Assembly: GCA_017427285.1 (NCBI GenBank)
Contig: JAFRTE010000007.1
Coordinates: 1 to 64,000 of the forward strand
DNA from: Clostridia bacterium
Lineage (GTDB): Bacteria; Bacillota; Clostridia; Oscillospirales; UBA644
DNA: 64,000 nucleotides
Direction of reading: 5' to 3'
Both the position numbers and the translations under genes were made by a program. Below the pieces are notes generated by a model. The model saw only the letters and a program-made list of their open reading frames with translations, did no database searches and had not been told where the DNA came from. Below, one piece after another: positions 2,691 through 40,109 of the stretch; the stretch's first letter is position 1, and the number at the start of each line of letters is the position of its first letter.

Positions 2691-3927
2691 TTTTTGTAAG
2701 ATTCAATATTTTTTTATCTTCGAGGCCTTTACCTCCGATAATTACTTCATCCTGCGCTTTAAGCGTATTTTCAGCGGAGGTCGGCTGCGGTTTTACAAGA
2801 GAATATTCGTCGGTAACAAATACTATTTCTATCGGTTTAAAAAGAATACGCTGTGCTGAGAGAACATAAACTCCGGTAACACCGTCAACGACCCTTAATG
2901 CTTCATTGCTTACCTTCAACCCGGTATATGTTTTTAGAATCATATGGGAAGTTTGCTTGCGAAGACCAAACAGTTCTGCGGTCAATGTCCCGCAGCGAAA
3001 TCTTACTGCATTTTTGTCGTTGACAGGCCTTGAAATATATTCAACAAAAGTTGTTATTTTAGTTGCACCGATTTCATCAATATCAAATTCAAGGGTAACG
3101 GATTTTCCGACATATAGATCGGAAGCCACAGAAGAAGGTACTTCAGCTATAAATGCCCAATATGAATAATGCTGTAGTTTTCCGACTGCAAAATCAGATA
3201 TTTCACTTTGAGGCATTTGCATCAGCGATTCATACATTGCAACTGTCGGTTCTTTATAATCGGACATATTGAGATATTCATAACCGTCAATATTTGAATA
3301 AAAATAACCAGCAGATGGGCTGTAGAGTGATTTCGATGATGATCCGGCATCCTGATATATCTGAGAAATTTCACTTTCGATGGACGCAATAACATTTGTG
3401 ATATATGAAGATCCTTCGGATTGTAAAAGTCTCTGGTCAAAAGCAGACTGAACTTTTTCTTCACTGATACTCTTTTGATTAAAGTCATCATCGCTTCCGG
3501 AATTGAGAAAAGAAATAATTGAATTTTTAATACTCTGCTCAACTGTTAACGAATCATACTGGGTACTTTTTCTTATGGTATCCTTAAGTCTTTCAAGCTT
3601 TTTATTAAGGTATGAAAGATTTTGCATCTGACTGTCTGAAATATTATCCTGATTATATGTTGCATATGGAGAATATCTGGCTATTCTTGCCCCGTCCGAA
3701 TAATTATAGTGAATAAATTTATAATCCTCATCGGCGTAAAGAACAATTTCATCTCTCAATGCAATTCCGCTGATGTCAATATGATTATCTACAGACGATT
3801 CTTCAACAATTTCTGAAACTACCTGTTGTGAGAATAAAGAAGTAGAGAAAAAACTGAAGAAAAAGTAAGCAGCAAGAATTAATGAAAAAATATAGAACAG
3901 AAGATTAAAAAGCGAATTAGATTTCAT
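2683..3927 (-). CDS. HlyD-like membrane-anchored adaptor protein
   Basis: A 414-residue protein with one N-terminal membrane anchor (residues about 7-28) and a large extracytoplasmic part. RDEIVLYADEDYKFIHYNYSDGARI resembles the first half of a barrel-sandwich (HlyD/lipoyl-type) domain, a helical region follows (about 105-215), and the second half with a beta-rich end occurs near residues 330-400. HlyD proteins normally link an inner-membrane exporter to an outer-membrane channel, but no exporter is nearby and a monoderm cell has no outer membrane. It sits five bases after hfq and overlaps ylmE, so an envelope or division role is possible (inference). Confidence 0.65.
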   Translation of the reverse strand: MKSNSLFNLLFYIFSLILAAYFFFSFFSTSLFSQQVVSEIVEESSVDNHIDISGIALRDEIVLYADEDYKFIHYNYSDGARIARYSPYATYNQDNISDSQMQNLSYLNKKLERLKDTIRKSTQYDSLTVEQSIKNSIISFLNSGSDDDFNQKSISEEKVQSAFDQRLLQSEGSSYITNVIASIESEISQIYQDAGSSSKSLYSPSAGYFYSNIDGYEYLNMSDYKEPTVAMYESLMQMPQSEISDFAVGKLQHYSYWAFIAEVPSSVASDLYVGKSVTLEFDIDEIGATKITTFVEYISRPVNDKNAVRFRCGTLTAELFGLRKQTSHMILKTYTGLKVSNEALRVVDGVTGVYVLSAQRILFKPIEIVFVTDEYSLVKPQPTSAENTLKAQDEVIIGGKGLEDKKILNLTKND

Positions 3928-33839: not shown

Positions 33840-35837
33840 TTATCCGATAAGATCGGACAGATATTTTTCTGAGATTTCGAAAACAACAGTATCGGGAGCT
33901 TCGTTAAGAATATCTCTTAAAACGATATCTCCGTTTCTAAGGATAAAACTTGCATCAGTAAACGCTTCGGAAATAAACGGCATCATTGTAAGTGCAGCTT
34001 CGTCATGAATTACAACAATATGTTTGTTGTTTACTGCATTCTTATTCTTAGTATTTATATAGTTTTCCGTAAGATAAAGCATATTTTCATCGGTAAGCCA
34101 GTCTACAGCGCCTTCGCCGAAGAGCTTGTTTATATCGATGTAGACTGCCTGTGTTTCATCTGTATTGGACGAATTCGGATTTATCGCTGATGACGATACT
34201 ACAATATTCTGTTTTTTCTTCGTTTTAAACTGATAATCATATTCATCGTAACTGTCGCCGAATCCCATAAGCATAGCAAGGGATTTTACCTTTGAATCAA
34301 CTGTTTCGATCTCATAATTCTCTATATCGAGATTTTCAATTGACTCATCGTTGGAAGACATTTTTGTCAGGAGCATATTGGTCGAGCTGAATGCGCCTAA
34401 AGAATTCAGATAATTATCAGTTTTAAAATACACATCTCTGTCATATGACGCCGAAACAAGCATATCACGAAGTTCAACGATATTCATATCAGAATACTTC
34501 CACAGTTCATCGTAAACCTGCTGCAAACGTTCGTCCCTGGACATTCTTCTTATCGACGACGGCATCATATTCTGATATACGGAACTCTTGTAAGGCACAA
34601 TTACAACATAAAAATCAATGCCCTGAGCATTCAGTATCTTTTCGTAATTCAGGAGAGTATTTCTGATGCTTTTAAGATCATCCTTTGAAAAAGAATTCAT
34701 TCTTTTATATGTTACAAGTTCTTCAGAGCTGAAAAGCCAATTGTTTTTGCCGATAACAACTTCTTCATATCTGGAATCTGAGAAGAAGAATGTTTTCATT
34801 TCTGAATACGAAGATGAAAGCGAAGCATTGATGGGATACTGAGTCTGATACTGAATAGCAGCTTCTTCAGGATACTGTATAAATCTTGCAATGGTGAAAT
34901 CGGGCGCGGAATAATCATCGGATAAACCCGACGCAAAGAATACTCCTGTCAGAATCGGAATACAAATCACGGTTCCGAGACAAACAGCTGTAAAAATGTC
35001 TGAAAAAGACGGCTTATTCTCGGAACGGATAAAATTGATAATTGTAAGAATAAGGCATGCAATGAAAACAACAAGAGCAAAAACGGTTTTTATAATATAA
35101 TCCGCAGAGGAAGGAGATATAAATAATCCGAAAATCAGTATAAGCGCAAGAGAAAGAAGGAATAAAACGAAAAGAATAAACTCCGGAGTAGAGTACCATC
35201 CGTCCGCGCCGGTTTTTATCATTCTTATTATAAAAAGCGCTCCTGTCAGTAATACCAGAGCAATAGACATTGATATAATGGCAAGCGTGGGGCGTCCGTT
35301 TGTTACTTCAATCGGCTTGGAGTTACAGAAATATGCACCTGCCTTATTTACTTTTGTGTAAACATAACCGTCCCTGTTTGAGAAATTGCCCATTCTTGAA
35401 ACGATATCAAAAACAGAGCTGATCTTATCGTATGTTATATTGTTTTCATGGGAAAATGACTTGATCTTTATACTTCTTATCGCAAAAGCAGTACCGTTTT
35501 GAGTACCGAGCGAAAAACGCAGGTAGGATATGCTTTCTGCAGGGACTTCAAAAACTACGGACTGGAAAGAAGTCATGCCCTTGACATTAACGGTAGATTT
35601 ATGGTCTTCATCAAAACGGTTAAAGTCAAGATTATCATAGTATAGAGTAAAGGTGTCGCTGACGGTTGTTCTGACATCAAGGGTAACGGTAAAGGTCATG
35701 CCGTCGGCATCATCTCCGAGAAGAGGATTTACCGCAATAAAGAATACTAAAAGGGATAAAACGATAAAAATCGCAAAAGTAACGGCAAAGCGAATAAGTT
35801 TATTTTTGTTTATTGTTATATCAAGATTTTCAAACAT
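33840..35837 (-). CDS. AlgX/AlgJ-like membrane protein, apparently lacking catalytic residues
   Basis: A 665-residue protein encoded 15 bases after an MBOAT acyltransferase. One N-terminal membrane helix and a beta-rich extracytoplasmic part (about 40-180) are followed by a four-helix membrane block (about 185-305) and a C-terminal SGNH-like AlgX/AlgJ domain beginning VVIGKNNWLFSSEE. The usual Asp-x-His of such enzymes (Y.KTDTHWN) reads YFKTDNYLN, and the usual nucleophile motif (GDSF-like) reads IHDEAALTMMPF, so His and Ser are missing while the end (APDTVVFEISEKYL) is well kept. It is probably a non-catalytic acetylation partner (inference). Confidence 0.72.
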   Translation of the reverse strand: MFENLDITINKNKLIRFAVTFAIFIVLSLLVFFIAVNPLLGDDADGMTFTVTLDVRTTVSDTFTLYYDNLDFNRFDEDHKSTVNVKGMTSFQSVVFEVPAESISYLRFSLGTQNGTAFAIRSIKIKSFSHENNITYDKISSVFDIVSRMGNFSNRDGYVYTKVNKAGAYFCNSKPIEVTNGRPTLAIISMSIALVLLTGALFIIRMIKTGADGWYSTPEFILFVLFLLSLALILIFGLFISPSSADYIIKTVFALVVFIACLILTIINFIRSENKPSFSDIFTAVCLGTVICIPILTGVFFASGLSDDYSAPDFTIARFIQYPEEAAIQYQTQYPINASLSSSYSEMKTFFFSDSRYEEVVIGKNNWLFSSEELVTYKRMNSFSKDDLKSIRNTLLNYEKILNAQGIDFYVVIVPYKSSVYQNMMPSSIRRMSRDERLQQVYDELWKYSDMNIVELRDMLVSASYDRDVYFKTDNYLNSLGAFSSTNMLLTKMSSNDESIENLDIENYEIETVDSKVKSLAMLMGFGDSYDEYDYQFKTKKKQNIVVSSSAINPNSSNTDETQAVYIDINKLFGEGAVDWLTDENMLYLTENYINTKNKNAVNNKHIVVIHDEAALTMMPFISEAFTDASFILRNGDIVLRDILNEAPDTVVFEISEKYLSDLIG

Positions 35838-35852
35838 ATCAATCGCCCCCTT

Positions 35853-37328
35853 TTAATATCTGAAATACTCGAAAATTCCGTTTTCTCCGGAAGAAAGCGT
35901 AAGGATCGTAAAAGCGAGTATGAGCGTCATAACAACTGTACATACCGGTTTATATACTTTTTCAAACCAGCTGAATTTATCGCACAGCTTACCGTAGAGT
36001 TTTCTAAGAAGAGGTTTGGTGAACGGTAAAGCGAAAATCAATGCGAATATCGCAATAATAAACGACTCATTGTCAAAAAATTCTCTTATACCCATTCTGG
36101 TATTAATATATCCGAATCCGGCAAGAGCACGCATTATAGACCATAAATGTGCAGGCGAATCTGCTCTGAGCATTGTCCAACCGAGCATTACTACGGCTAC
36201 AGAATATATATTGCCGAGCACTCTGCGTACTTTTTCAGGTATTTTAGACTTGATCCTGCCAACCCTTTTTGTTTTTTCTATCATTAGGAAGAATCCGAAA
36301 TAAACGCCGACAAGAATTACAAGCCAGGACGCTTTATGCCAGAGGGCACACAGAAAAATCGTTATGCCCATATTTATATACATCCATTTTCTGCTGTGTT
36401 CGTTGCCGCCTACTTTTCTGTTTCCGCCGAGGGGAATATAAATATAATCCTTAAACCACGAAGAAAGGCTGACTCGCCAACGTTTTGTCCAGAATTCCGT
36501 AACGGAGCGCGCTCCGTACGGATTATCGATCTCTTCAGGTAATACGAAACCAAATAATCTTGCAATACCGAGAGCCATATCAACATAACCGGTAAATTCG
36601 TAAAAGACCTGTAAAGCAAGACATATAACACCGGTCCAGGAAATTGCGATCGAAAGACTAGTAGCCGCAAGAGAAAAGATACCGTCAACAACAATTTTAA
36701 GATTGGACGATACAAGAACAATCTTCATAAGTCCGAGAGCAAATCTGAAAAGACCTTCGGATATGTTTTTAACGGAATTATCGCGATTTGCAATCTGCGA
36801 AATCACATTTTTATATTTCAGTGCGGGTCCGACAATAAGATTCGGGAAAAATGCGAGATAAAGGCCCGTATCTGCAATACTTTCGCTTCTCGGTGTGCCC
36901 CTGTATATGTCAATATTATATGAGATCGCCTGAATGGTAAAAATTGCTACTCCGAAAGGAAGTCCGAACTCAACAATGGGAACAAATGAACCGAGTCCCA
37001 TCCAGAAGAGAGAAATAAACTCGCGAAGTGAAATAGAAAGGAATTCAGCATATCTGAAAACGGCTGCAACAAACAGATTGAAAACAACAGAAAGTATTAA
37101 GAACAGCTTTTTGTTGCCGCCTTCACTTTGAGATATCAGTTTTCCGAAATAATGATTTAAAATTATGCTTATAATAAGCATAAAACAAAAGACGGGTTCA
37201 CCCCAGGCGAAAAACGCTATACTGAACGCCAGAAGCGACAGATTTTTATATTTTTGAGGGACGGCATAGTAAATAACTACCATCAAAGGAAGAAAAAGAA
37301 GCAAAAAAAGCGGCGAGTCAAATTGCAT
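35853..37328 (-). CDS. MBOAT family O-acyltransferase (AlgI/DltB-like)
   Basis: Polytopic membrane enzyme (ten or more segments) that moves an acyl group across the membrane onto an extracellular polymer. The family features are GLPFGVAIFTIQAISY, NLIVGPALKYKNV, DNPYGARSVTEFWTKRWRVSL and the catalytic His in FLCALWHKASWLV. The 491 residues are typical for AlgI-type proteins. With the downstream AlgX-like gene it forms a polymer-acetylation pair; the acceptor is unknown, possibly a wall polysaccharide or teichoic acid. Confidence 0.92.
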   Translation of the reverse strand: MQFDSPLFLLLFLPLMVVIYYAVPQKYKNLSLLAFSIAFFAWGEPVFCFMLIISIILNHYFGKLISQSEGGNKKLFLILSVVFNLFVAAVFRYAEFLSISLREFISLFWMGLGSFVPIVEFGLPFGVAIFTIQAISYNIDIYRGTPRSESIADTGLYLAFFPNLIVGPALKYKNVISQIANRDNSVKNISEGLFRFALGLMKIVLVSSNLKIVVDGIFSLAATSLSIAISWTGVICLALQVFYEFTGYVDMALGIARLFGFVLPEEIDNPYGARSVTEFWTKRWRVSLSSWFKDYIYIPLGGNRKVGGNEHSRKWMYINMGITIFLCALWHKASWLVILVGVYFGFFLMIEKTKRVGRIKSKIPEKVRRVLGNIYSVAVVMLGWTMLRADSPAHLWSIMRALAGFGYINTRMGIREFFDNESFIIAIFALIFALPFTKPLLRKLYGKLCDKFSWFEKVYKPVCTVVMTLILAFTILTLSSGENGIFEYFRY

Positions 37329-37396: not shown

Positions 37397-37535
37397 TATC
37401 ATTTTGATAATAACGGAAACTTTTACGGAAATTGTTAGTTTTAAGACAAATCTTTATCAAATTTCAATTTAAGCTGGAAATCATGACGTTGTAGTTCGTT
37501 ATATAAAAATCCTCAGAATGAAATCTGAGGACTTC

Positions 37536-37555
37536 TGGCGCGCTTTGAGGGACTC
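37536..37555 (-). repeat. Copy of the tRNA-Arg 3' end in unit 1
   Basis: Twenty bases identical to the T-stem-to-CCA end of the tRNA at 37854-37873; a second copy lies at 37695-37714. The identity begins exactly inside the T stem (GAGTCCC), like the core of tRNA-associated attachment sites, but there is no integrase nearby. Confidence 0.85.
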
Positions 37556-37641
37556 TTCTCGAGGCTCGACGCCTCTCGGTCAGAAACGGCTCCTGACAGT
37601 CCACCGGACTGTCAATTCACTACCGTTTCCGTTCGAGTCCC
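37549..37641. other. Structured insert with nested inverted repeats (unit 1)
   Basis: Complementary arms seen on the plus strand: GGGACTC (37549-37555) with GAGTCCC (37635-37641); GAGGC (37561-37565) with GCCTC (37571-37575); GAAACGG (37583-37589) with CCGTTTC (37623-37629); and, nested within it, TGACAGTCC (37594-37602) with GGACTGTCA (37606-37614) around a 3-base loop. Together they can form a three-way junction in DNA or RNA. The same arms recur 159 bp further on in unit 2, where the only change falls in an unpaired linker. Confidence 0.75.
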
Positions 37642-37802
37642 CGAAAAAAGTATTTATCAATACAAAAATCCTCAGAATTAAATCTGAGGACTTCTGGCGC
37701 GCTTTGAGGGACTCTTCTCGAGGCTCGACGCCTCTCGGTCAGAAACGGCTCTTGACAGTCCACCGGACTGTCAATTCACTACCGTTTCCGTTCGAGTCCC
37801 CG

Positions 37803-37849
37803 AAAAAAGTATTTATCAATACAAAAATCCTCAGAATTAAATCTGAGGA
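37803..37849 (-). terminator. Rho-independent terminator of tRNA-Arg, with a second weak hairpin
   Basis: Four bases after the CCA end, an 8-bp stem TCCTCAGA/TCTGAGGA (37828-37849) with a 6-base loop is followed on the minus strand by TTTTT. Directly downstream GTATT/AATAC (37809-37822) and TTTTTT form a second, weak terminator-like hairpin. The strong hairpin is repeated at 37664-37690 and 37505-37531. Confidence 0.88.
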
Positions 37850-37853
37850 CTTC

Positions 37854-37930
37854 TGGCGCGCTTTGAGGGACTCGAACCCCCGACCTACGGCTTAGAAGGC
37901 AGTTGCTCTATCCAGCTGAGCTAAAAGCGC
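37854..37930 (-). tRNA. tRNA-Arg (anticodon TCT)
   Basis: A complete cloverleaf of 77 bases with encoded CCA: acceptor GCGCTTT/AAAGCGC, D arm GCTC/GAGC, anticodon loop CTTCTAA (TCT at 37896-37894, reads AGA), T arm with TTCGAGT, discriminator G. One defect: the anticodon stem ACTGC/GCCGT has a T-C mismatch at the third pair (positions 29 and 41), where related tRNAs have T-A. It has its own promoter and a strong terminator, so probably functional. Confidence 0.93.
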
Positions 37931-38036: not shown

Positions 38037-40109
38037 TCACTTGGCGTATGCAGGCCAAAGGTTTAAGTTCTCCTGAAGGTATCCGTAATAATCTTTATCG
38101 AGTATTTTAGTTGAATACTTAAACTTGTTGGCGACTACTTTATTCATGGAAGAGACGTACGATGAATCGACTTCAACACCCTCGTTAGGTGTAAACGTTC
38201 TGGTTTTTGCATTGTAGTATCCTGCATCTGAAAGCCAGCTGTAGTTATCAAAAATAACGAGAGAAGGCGCAGTAGACATCATGTCATAGCCCATAAGAAG
38301 TCTTGAATCGTATTCCAGTCCGAAAAGATTGTGCAATGTCGGAAGAATATCAAGGCTGCACGTTAATTTATCTATTACGGTAGGTTCCATACCCTGACAG
38401 TAGATAATGCAAACGCTTTCATAATACTCGGTATTCGGATCGAGATGACGGCCGGCAAGTTCATCGTATTCCTCATAAGTAAGTCCGTACGGAATATGGT
38501 CGGGGCTCATTACGATAACTGTATCCTCCGCAATTCCGAGTTCGTTAAGCTTTTCAAGAAGGAATTCGCATGCTCTGTCAAGCTCCATATTACATGCAAG
38601 ATATCCCTTAACAATTTCCGAATAGTCCAGATCCTGAACTTCGCTTCTGTGTTTTGTTGACATTGCGTTATCACGCCATGAATACTCCATATGGCCGCTG
38701 ACAGTCATATAGTAAGCATGGAACGGTCTGTTAAACATATATTCACCGTAAGTAAGCTCCATCATTTCAAGATCGCTTTGCGGCCACGACGGGGTTACAT
38801 TCAGTCCGTTCCCCAAACCTTTATATATATATCCCATATTCGGGTGAGAATAGTCTCTTTTATAGTAAGTATAGGTGTTGTTGTGATATGCTACTGTCCT
38901 ATAGCCCTGGGCTTTAAGAGTATTTCCCATACAGAAAGCCATCAGGTTACCCTGTAATCCGGATCTGTAAAAGCTCCAGACATCGGATTTGGGGATAAGC
39001 CCCGTACAGGCGACATATTCGCCGTCGGAAGTGGAAACAGGCCAGCTCGGAGTGTAGAAATTTGTAAAGTAGAATCCTTCTGTCATCATTTTATACAAAG
39101 TCGGCGTCGTATCGGGTCTTATAGCATATTTGGACAGAGCTTCGCAAGTCATAAAAATCAGATTTTTACCCTTGAAAAATCCGGTATACTTGTTAGTCTG
39201 AGTTGGAGTTAAACTTGAAAAGTATTTATTCATTGCATCGTAATCGGAATCGGTCTCGGTATTAAGCAAGGTTTCGAAATCGATTATCATTACGTTATCA
39301 ACGGGAGTAAATACTGTTTCTTCGACAGTTTCTTCCGTGTTGCCCTCCTCCTGTTCGGATATTTGCTCGGAAATTGGGTTTGTGTTTTCCTGAACAGGTA
39401 CAGTAATTACGTCAGGGACGTCAACTACTTCAATATCATGGTCGCTGTCTGTATAAGGCAGAATAAGATGCTGAAAATCAAGGCGAGATGACGTAAGAAG
39501 ACCAAATCTGTTTATTGAATTTTCAATCTGAAATGTGTGGAAATACAGATCATTAGAGGTTGGCGCTCCGCTTGAAGAAAGCGCTATAATAAGAATTGTA
39601 ATAAGATAAATACCGAGAGATGAAGCAACTAAAATAAGAGATGTTTTAAGCTTTGTTTTTCTCGGTTTAAGCTTGTTTTTTCTGAAAATAATATAAACGA
39701 CAACAGGGATCAAAAACAGTATTATAAAAAGAAGTGAATCAACGATTCCTTTTATGGTTGATGTTGTAAAGCCCTTGATCGCTTCTCCTGCGCCTTTAAT
39801 TGATGATAATATATAAAACTTTCTGAAAATCTGGAAATAAACAAACTGAGACCCGAAAATCAAAAGCAAAGCAATTAAAGCAACTATAGCGATTACGTTG
39901 CCTATCTTAGGTTTGAAAAAGGTGCAGATCGCAGTTAAAAAAAACCCCGCAGAAGCAGAAAAAAGAACAGTAAATAACAGACTGTCGTCAAAAGCAAAAC
40001 CGAATATTTTGATTTTTAGAATAAACTCATAAAGAATGATTGTTACAGGAAAAACAAACCAGAACAAACGCTTTGACAGTTTGCTTTTATGATTTAATGT
40101 GTTTGTCAT
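38037..40109 (-). CDS. LTA synthase family sulfatase-fold membrane protein
   Basis: Probable lipoteichoic-acid synthase-type glycerophosphotransferase. Five N-terminal membrane helices (residues about 15-180) are followed by an acidic, Val/Glu/Thr-rich linker (about 225-270) and an extracellular alkaline-phosphatase-like domain. Catalytic positions match the LtaS family: Glu in FMTCEALS, nucleophile Thr in STSDGEYVACTG, His in MTVSGHMEY, and Asp-His in MSPDHIPYG. The 690 residues are typical. It sits 21 bases after manA and is probably co-transcribed with it. Confidence 0.88.
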   Translation of the reverse strand: MTNTLNHKSKLSKRLFWFVFPVTIILYEFILKIKIFGFAFDDSLLFTVLFSASAGFFLTAICTFFKPKIGNVIAIVALIALLLIFGSQFVYFQIFRKFYILSSIKGAGEAIKGFTTSTIKGIVDSLLFIILFLIPVVVYIIFRKNKLKPRKTKLKTSLILVASSLGIYLITILIIALSSSGAPTSNDLYFHTFQIENSINRFGLLTSSRLDFQHLILPYTDSDHDIEVVDVPDVITVPVQENTNPISEQISEQEEGNTEETVEETVFTPVDNVMIIDFETLLNTETDSDYDAMNKYFSSLTPTQTNKYTGFFKGKNLIFMTCEALSKYAIRPDTTPTLYKMMTEGFYFTNFYTPSWPVSTSDGEYVACTGLIPKSDVWSFYRSGLQGNLMAFCMGNTLKAQGYRTVAYHNNTYTYYKRDYSHPNMGYIYKGLGNGLNVTPSWPQSDLEMMELTYGEYMFNRPFHAYYMTVSGHMEYSWRDNAMSTKHRSEVQDLDYSEIVKGYLACNMELDRACEFLLEKLNELGIAEDTVIVMSPDHIPYGLTYEEYDELAGRHLDPNTEYYESVCIIYCQGMEPTVIDKLTCSLDILPTLHNLFGLEYDSRLLMGYDMMSTAPSLVIFDNYSWLSDAGYYNAKTRTFTPNEGVEVDSSYVSSMNKVVANKFKYSTKILDKDYYGYLQENLNLWPAYAK

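Follow-up and report, generated by a model that had tools for sequence, protein, structure and literature searches.

The 64,000-nucleotide stretch of Clostridia DNA analysed here (the window) contains an intact tRNA-Arg(TCT) gene on the minus strand (37854-37930; identified by ARAGORN and by Rfam RF00005), and behind this gene its own 3' end recurs in tandem, which raises the question of what kind of sequence would build an array from the tail of a tRNA. We believe, with a probability of roughly 0.6, that the array consists of a mobile DNA element, non-autonomous and hairpin-forming, in two tandem copies. Both units lie on the minus strand and form a 159-nt direct repeat of 98-99% identity: a proximal unit 1 (37695-37853; terminator, spacer, left arm, core and tail copy, a unit class also present in sibling genomes) and a distal unit 2 (37536-37694). 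Past the last tail there is a further copy of the terminator (37501-37535, minus strand; a 94% match to the start of the unit). Direct repeats of 159 nt at 37501-37659 and 37660-37818 (98% identity) and a 55-nt segment present three times at a spacing of exactly 159 nt bear out the earlier note, which had described the tail and terminator as recurring in exact 159-bp steps. The 20-nt tail, GAGTCCCTCAAAGCGCGCCA on the tRNA strand, is found at 37854-37873, 37695-37714 and 37536-37555, each copy being followed on that strand by a CCTCAGAT..ATTCTGAGG hairpin with a T-run.

Judging from the sequences, the array would not be an assembly artefact in any simple sense, because the two unit copies differ at single sites, because a sibling genome that was assembled separately has one unit at this very locus, and because other assemblies hold arrays of two to three units at other tRNAs. 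Nor is the repeat confined to one genome, a case that the earlier note had held open as fatal to its proposal: there is the sibling with one unit, and the core recurs in many other genomes. The recent duplication proposed from the near-identity of the units fits the comparison of the two, although the family itself occurs widely. The 159-bp unit contains no gene; a 125-aa ORF on the plus strand (37518-37895) was taken as spurious, being the repeat read in frame across both units because 159 is a multiple of three, and its translation contains WRALRDSNPRP, a familiar reading of antisense tRNA. The neighbouring genes lie at 33840-37328 and 38037-40109; by eye, those on one side of the array encode an MBOAT (AlgI/DltB-like) acyltransferase and a partner, and the other side encodes a sulfatase- or lipoteichoic-acid-synthase-like protein.

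Read 5' to 3' on the minus strand, each unit opens with a terminator-like hairpin, recognised from sequence and fold (CCTCAGATTTAATTCTGAGG and then a T-run; 37829-37848 in unit 1, with copies at 37670-37689 and 37511-37530), and after a spacer comes the left arm GGGGACTCGAAC (37790-37801 in unit 1, 37631-37642 in unit 2), an inverted copy of the tRNA T-loop and T-stem. There follows the core (37741-37789 in unit 1; delimited by fold, stem B co-variation and pattern searches), in which stem B (GGAAACGG/CCGTTTC) encloses GTGAAT, hairpin C (TTGACAGTCC-GGT-GGACTGTCAA) and GAG, with TAGTGAAT between the first strand of stem B and hairpin C. The unit then runs through GACCGAG and a small hairpin D (37715-37740 in unit 1; fold, and co-variation of stem D in the family) to the tail copy, the last 20 nt of tRNA-Arg including CCA. 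The left arm is complementary to the tail copy and pairs with it (inverted-repeat pairs I3 and I4), so that the unit closes on itself; against shuffled sequences the fold of the unit had a z-score of -7.45, and that of the insert by itself -3.83. The inserts between the tails had earlier been described as nearly identical to each other and absent from the tRNA; the first part stands (98-99% between units), but the insert begins with an inverted T-arm copy that had been missed.

At orthologous tRNA-Arg(TCT) genes with the same downstream gene we found no unit in two species (G004 and G008), one in a third (G009) and two here, so that units have been gained or lost, and the suggestion that copy number be compared at such loci thus revealed variation within the genus. 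The terminators on both sides of the Arg(TCT) unit resemble each other, and part of the unit could therefore be a local duplication. The Arg cores are 98-100% identical between tRNA-Arg(ACG) and tRNA-Arg(TCT) of different species, and terminator and spacer are also common to the two loci at roughly three quarters identity. This comparison was considered as proof that the unit carried its own terminator and is weakened by what siblings show at tRNA-Arg(ACG): island-like DNA borders directly on the tail copy there, so that native and carried terminators are indistinguishable; only tRNA-Arg(TCT) provides a clean empty-site test. In one of these siblings (L262, G008:C33) an island-like stretch of ~6.4 kb, in which no integrase was recognised by eye, lies between an element tail copy and the 3' half of tRNA-Arg(ACG), with a unit at each.

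Our searches for the family core, GTGAAT-hairpin-AGAGCC, revealed that it recurs in MAGs of gut Clostridia. Within the genus, six of ten genomes have it, at tRNA-Arg(TCT), Arg(ACG), Leu(CAA), Leu(CAG) and Leu(GAG); so do seven of 20 at the level of the family and, by a pattern search, 26 of 394 at that of the order (reversed-pattern control, 0), the genomes surveyed being mostly fragmented MAGs and the exact-pattern search making the core look more conserved than is warranted. At least 119 contig stretches of GTDB genomes contain the core, and among the matches listed from these contigs all were Clostridia or Bacillota MAGs by title. Among 150 distinct copies, 57 have a detected tRNA no more than 400 bp away, usually one that lies upstream on the same strand and ends 41-83 bases ahead of the core, and a terminator-like hairpin separates tRNA and unit in nearly every case; at many loci terminators 1 and 2 are unrelated to each other. 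Variants depart from this arrangement: at tRNA-Leu(CAA) the element lies 5' of the tRNA together with a fragment from the tRNA 5' end, at tRNA-Met an inverted anticodon arm precedes it, and at tRNA-Arg(CCT) a copy lies within a D-loop fragment. In the window's own genome (G000:C14; L023, 1567-1900) two copies 133 bp apart lie 5' of tRNA-Leu(CAA) with duplicated 5' fragments of the tRNA. A second, different short element (...GTTCGCTTCATCTTCCACAGGAAGCGCTC...) sits beside the same tRNA-Leu genes (L024, ~1320-1520 and ~3700-3900; L025, ~590-735) and likewise terminates in duplicated pieces of tRNA; these sites seem to be used by two or more families of elements.

We assessed the match of each element to its host over 37 distinct copies, which adjoin 21 tRNA isoacceptors. 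In these copies the element lies behind the tRNA and a terminator on the same strand, opens with the inverted T-loop and T-stem of that tRNA, and closes with a copy of its tail, usually as far as CCA. The left arm matched the reverse complement of its own tRNA 3' end above the mean of other tRNAs in 37 of 37 copies and was strictly best with its own tRNA in 18, the T-arms of many tRNAs being alike; the 18-nt tail including CCA is a perfect copy in 24 of 37 and matches at 16 or more of the 18 positions in 31. Left arms can also be inherited, since two Trp copies have one arm in common although one of the tails has changed. The search for the insert beside other tRNAs in Clostridia that the earlier note had called for thus found the core at 21 isoacceptors, and of the readings offered there it is the non-autonomous micro-element that survives, with the core beside these tRNAs and elsewhere and with presence and absence at orthologous sites.

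Many copies lie in palindromes away from any detected tRNA; some sit in the loops of REP-like palindromes, precisely so in one case. These copies begin with T(A)AGCGAAGCG behind a run of G within palindromic repeats, and in 63 copies with a TAGCGAAGCG-type left end the left-hand target side is rich in G, which occupies position -1 in 62 copies, -2 in 55 and -3 in 50. One copy (L076, ~2600-2720) lies inside a RAYT-type transposase gene that has an intact paralogue 2.5 kb away, by which the target was the loop of GGCGCG...CGCGCC, without target duplication; both this gene and its paralogue have REP-like GTAG palindromes within the coding sequence. The element is not a classical MITE, as this one insertion, compared with the intact paralogue, shows no fixed-length target-site duplication, and at tRNA genes the whole tail is duplicated. 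Hairpin loops are common to T-loops, D-loops and the REP-like sites, and we infer that loops are the actual target.

The earlier note knew of no named element with such a layout; this is contradicted by the rtT repeats of E. coli tyrT, which have 178-bp units, a copy of the tRNA-Tyr tail and an inverted arm. At tyrT/tyrV we found AATCCTTCCCCCACCACCA tail copies, an inverted arm (GGGGAAGGAT) and hairpins between, with three rtT units in tandem and a fourth lying between the two tRNAs, and nothing of rtT-like layout at three further E. coli tRNA ends taken as controls; rtT occurs in 4695 of 5426 E. coli genomes, in 1-14 places per genome. The rtT repeats (RttR, RF00391) and the Clostridia array are alike in their tandem units behind a tRNA (178 bp and 159 bp, respectively), each ending in a copy of the tRNA 3' tail including CCA, with hairpins between, in an upstream inverted arm (GGGGAAGGAT in E. 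coli, ATCCTTCCCC here) and in variable copy number. Both also have a protein-like ORF through the repeats (tpr in E. coli; 37518-37895, probably spurious, in the window) and occur in two settings, at tRNAs and away from them, rtT-like sequences being known from BIMEs (PMC2965389). The Clostridia family differs in having another core, an arm that includes the T-loop, a terminator between tRNA and unit, and 21 isoacceptors. Both marks of the RtT layout, a tail copy including CCA and a complementary left arm, are present; however, the Rfam RtT covariance model (gathering threshold 45 bits; E. coli controls score 133-138 bits) gave no hit across this region of the window, not even at E<=10, and none in six genomes of the genus. 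Membership in the known Rfam family was rejected, and because the model fails we regard this as a separate, rtT-like family that may arise in like manner. Literature searches turned up the rtT and BIME parallels and no description of this Clostridia family, which is a real and apparently undescribed family of rtT-like, tRNA-tail hairpin elements.

The rtT parallel brings with it the alternative that the unit is a functional RNA, transcribed with the tRNA and released at the CCA ends as reported for E. coli rtT RNA, with selection on the RNA keeping the structure. The strong fold, the co-varying stems and the CCA kept in the tail copies would suit such an RNA, as would the E. coli rttR annotation, whose end coincides exactly with the CCA of the following tail copy, and a paper (PMC4986893) that reports Northern-blot signals for RtT RNAs in Actinobacillus and describes the release of such RNAs from tRNA operons. 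We consider it unlikely. In stem B, 0.72 of positions pair against 0.49 on shuffling (maximum 0.53), and across stems B and D (G-T counts of 17 and 6; A-C counts of 23 and 11) G-T and A-C are both depleted to a like degree relative to shuffles; the stems thus co-vary with Watson-Crick pairs and without the preference for G-T over A-C that same-strand RNA selection would give. As RNA selection would spare G-U, this favours DNA palindromes and points to DNA hairpins rather than a selected RNA, the palindromes being kept either by a function of folded DNA or by palindrome repair. The terminator-like hairpin between tRNA and unit in nearly all copies also speaks against the RNA device that had been proposed earlier, as do the many copies in palindromes away from detected tRNAs and the missing Rfam match.

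A second alternative is that the units are attachment-site scars or decoys of large tRNA-targeting integrative elements, mobilised, if at all, by the tyrosine integrases of those elements. The tail copies are typical attachment cores, and like tRNA-targeting IMEs, ICEs, prophages and islands the element uses the tRNA 3' end, duplicates the tail and leaves the tRNA intact; it differs in being ~160 bp long and gene-less, with no integrase of its own, and in having an inverted T-arm as its left arm. The island-like DNA that siblings have directly against their Arg(ACG) tail copy would fit, as would a tyrosine integrase ORF (L191) that the window's own genome has near the other side of tRNA-Leu(CAA), ~0.4 kb from the element copies there. 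This was the only tyrosine-recombinase motif found near tRNA copies (by a motif scan of the loci rather than a profile search), and so the earlier statement that there is no integrase holds for the gene-less unit and for the other tRNA copies but not for tRNA-Leu(CAA). Scars would not have one core at 21 isoacceptors, nor would they sit in REP-like palindromes, and we judge this explanation improbable.

A RAYT partner was suggested by the RAYT gene 0.1 kb from the L076 copy and was rejected: the gene is the insertion target, and RAYT (PF01797) does not track the element across genomes (nine of 26 element genomes, 143 of 368 others); the window's own genome has only a fragment of RAYT. IS110 was rejected as mobiliser, with its transposase in none of the 26 element genomes, and likewise a retroelement or group II intron derivative, with reverse transcriptase in three of 26 element genomes and five of 26 controls. 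Carriage by phages or plasmids was dismissed, no copy of the core being found in the phage and plasmid collections; seven viral-contig stretches contain the core in our survey. Like REP/REPIN sequences with RAYT, the elements are short, dispersed, non-autonomous palindromes; unlike them, they occur independently of RAYT, have tRNA-tail specificity, and insert into REP-like hairpins rather than being such hairpins. Integron attC sites and gene-less cassettes are also folded-strand palindromes in arrays; identity with attC was rejected, as inspection of the aligned copies showed no RYYYAAC/GTTRRRY core pair, and no integron context was seen.

Template switching at quasi-palindromes yields inverted arms and perfect stems. 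A very unlikely alternative, that passive local events alone (tandem duplication of the tRNA tail, and growth of palindromes through template switching at hairpins, the core being immobile) made the array, would account for these arms and stems, for the exact array periods and for the likeness of both Arg(TCT) terminators, and may explain copy number and stem repair, but for the core it is largely refuted by the occurrence of one core at 21 isoacceptors, in non-tRNA palindromes and in many genera, by unrelated terminators 1 and 2 at many loci and by the clean insertion in the transposase gene.

The spread of the family and the gain or loss of its units are well supported, and its reading as a spreading DNA element fairly well; the mechanism of its movement is one that we infer, and the catalyst is a guess. 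The element would move as a circle or a folded single strand and would be joined into a hairpin loop (T-loop, D-loop, anticodon loop or REP loop) by a recombinase supplied in trans or by an enzyme that the host genomes have in common, our leading guesses being host Xer-type enzymes or the tyrosine integrases of islands or prophages acting in trans. Tandem units would arise by unequal exchange between tail copies, and the terminator between tRNA and element would keep the tRNA transcript short, making the insertion harmless with the tRNA intact. More tentatively, we speculate that Clostridia and enterobacterial rtT have in common the layout of a class of gene-less DNA hairpins that enter hairpin loops as a folded strand, the outer arm possibly being rewritten for each target, by which one core could colonise many tRNA genes harmlessly.

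With these findings the rtT repeats are no longer a lone curiosity of a single E. coli operon but an instance of an architecture that recurs. Through its many tRNA targets and its sites both occupied and unoccupied, the Clostridia family provides a natural set of cases for asking how such repeats arise. If insertion into hairpin loops is true, this would be a very small mobile element that, without any known enzyme, uses tRNA genes as safe harbours.
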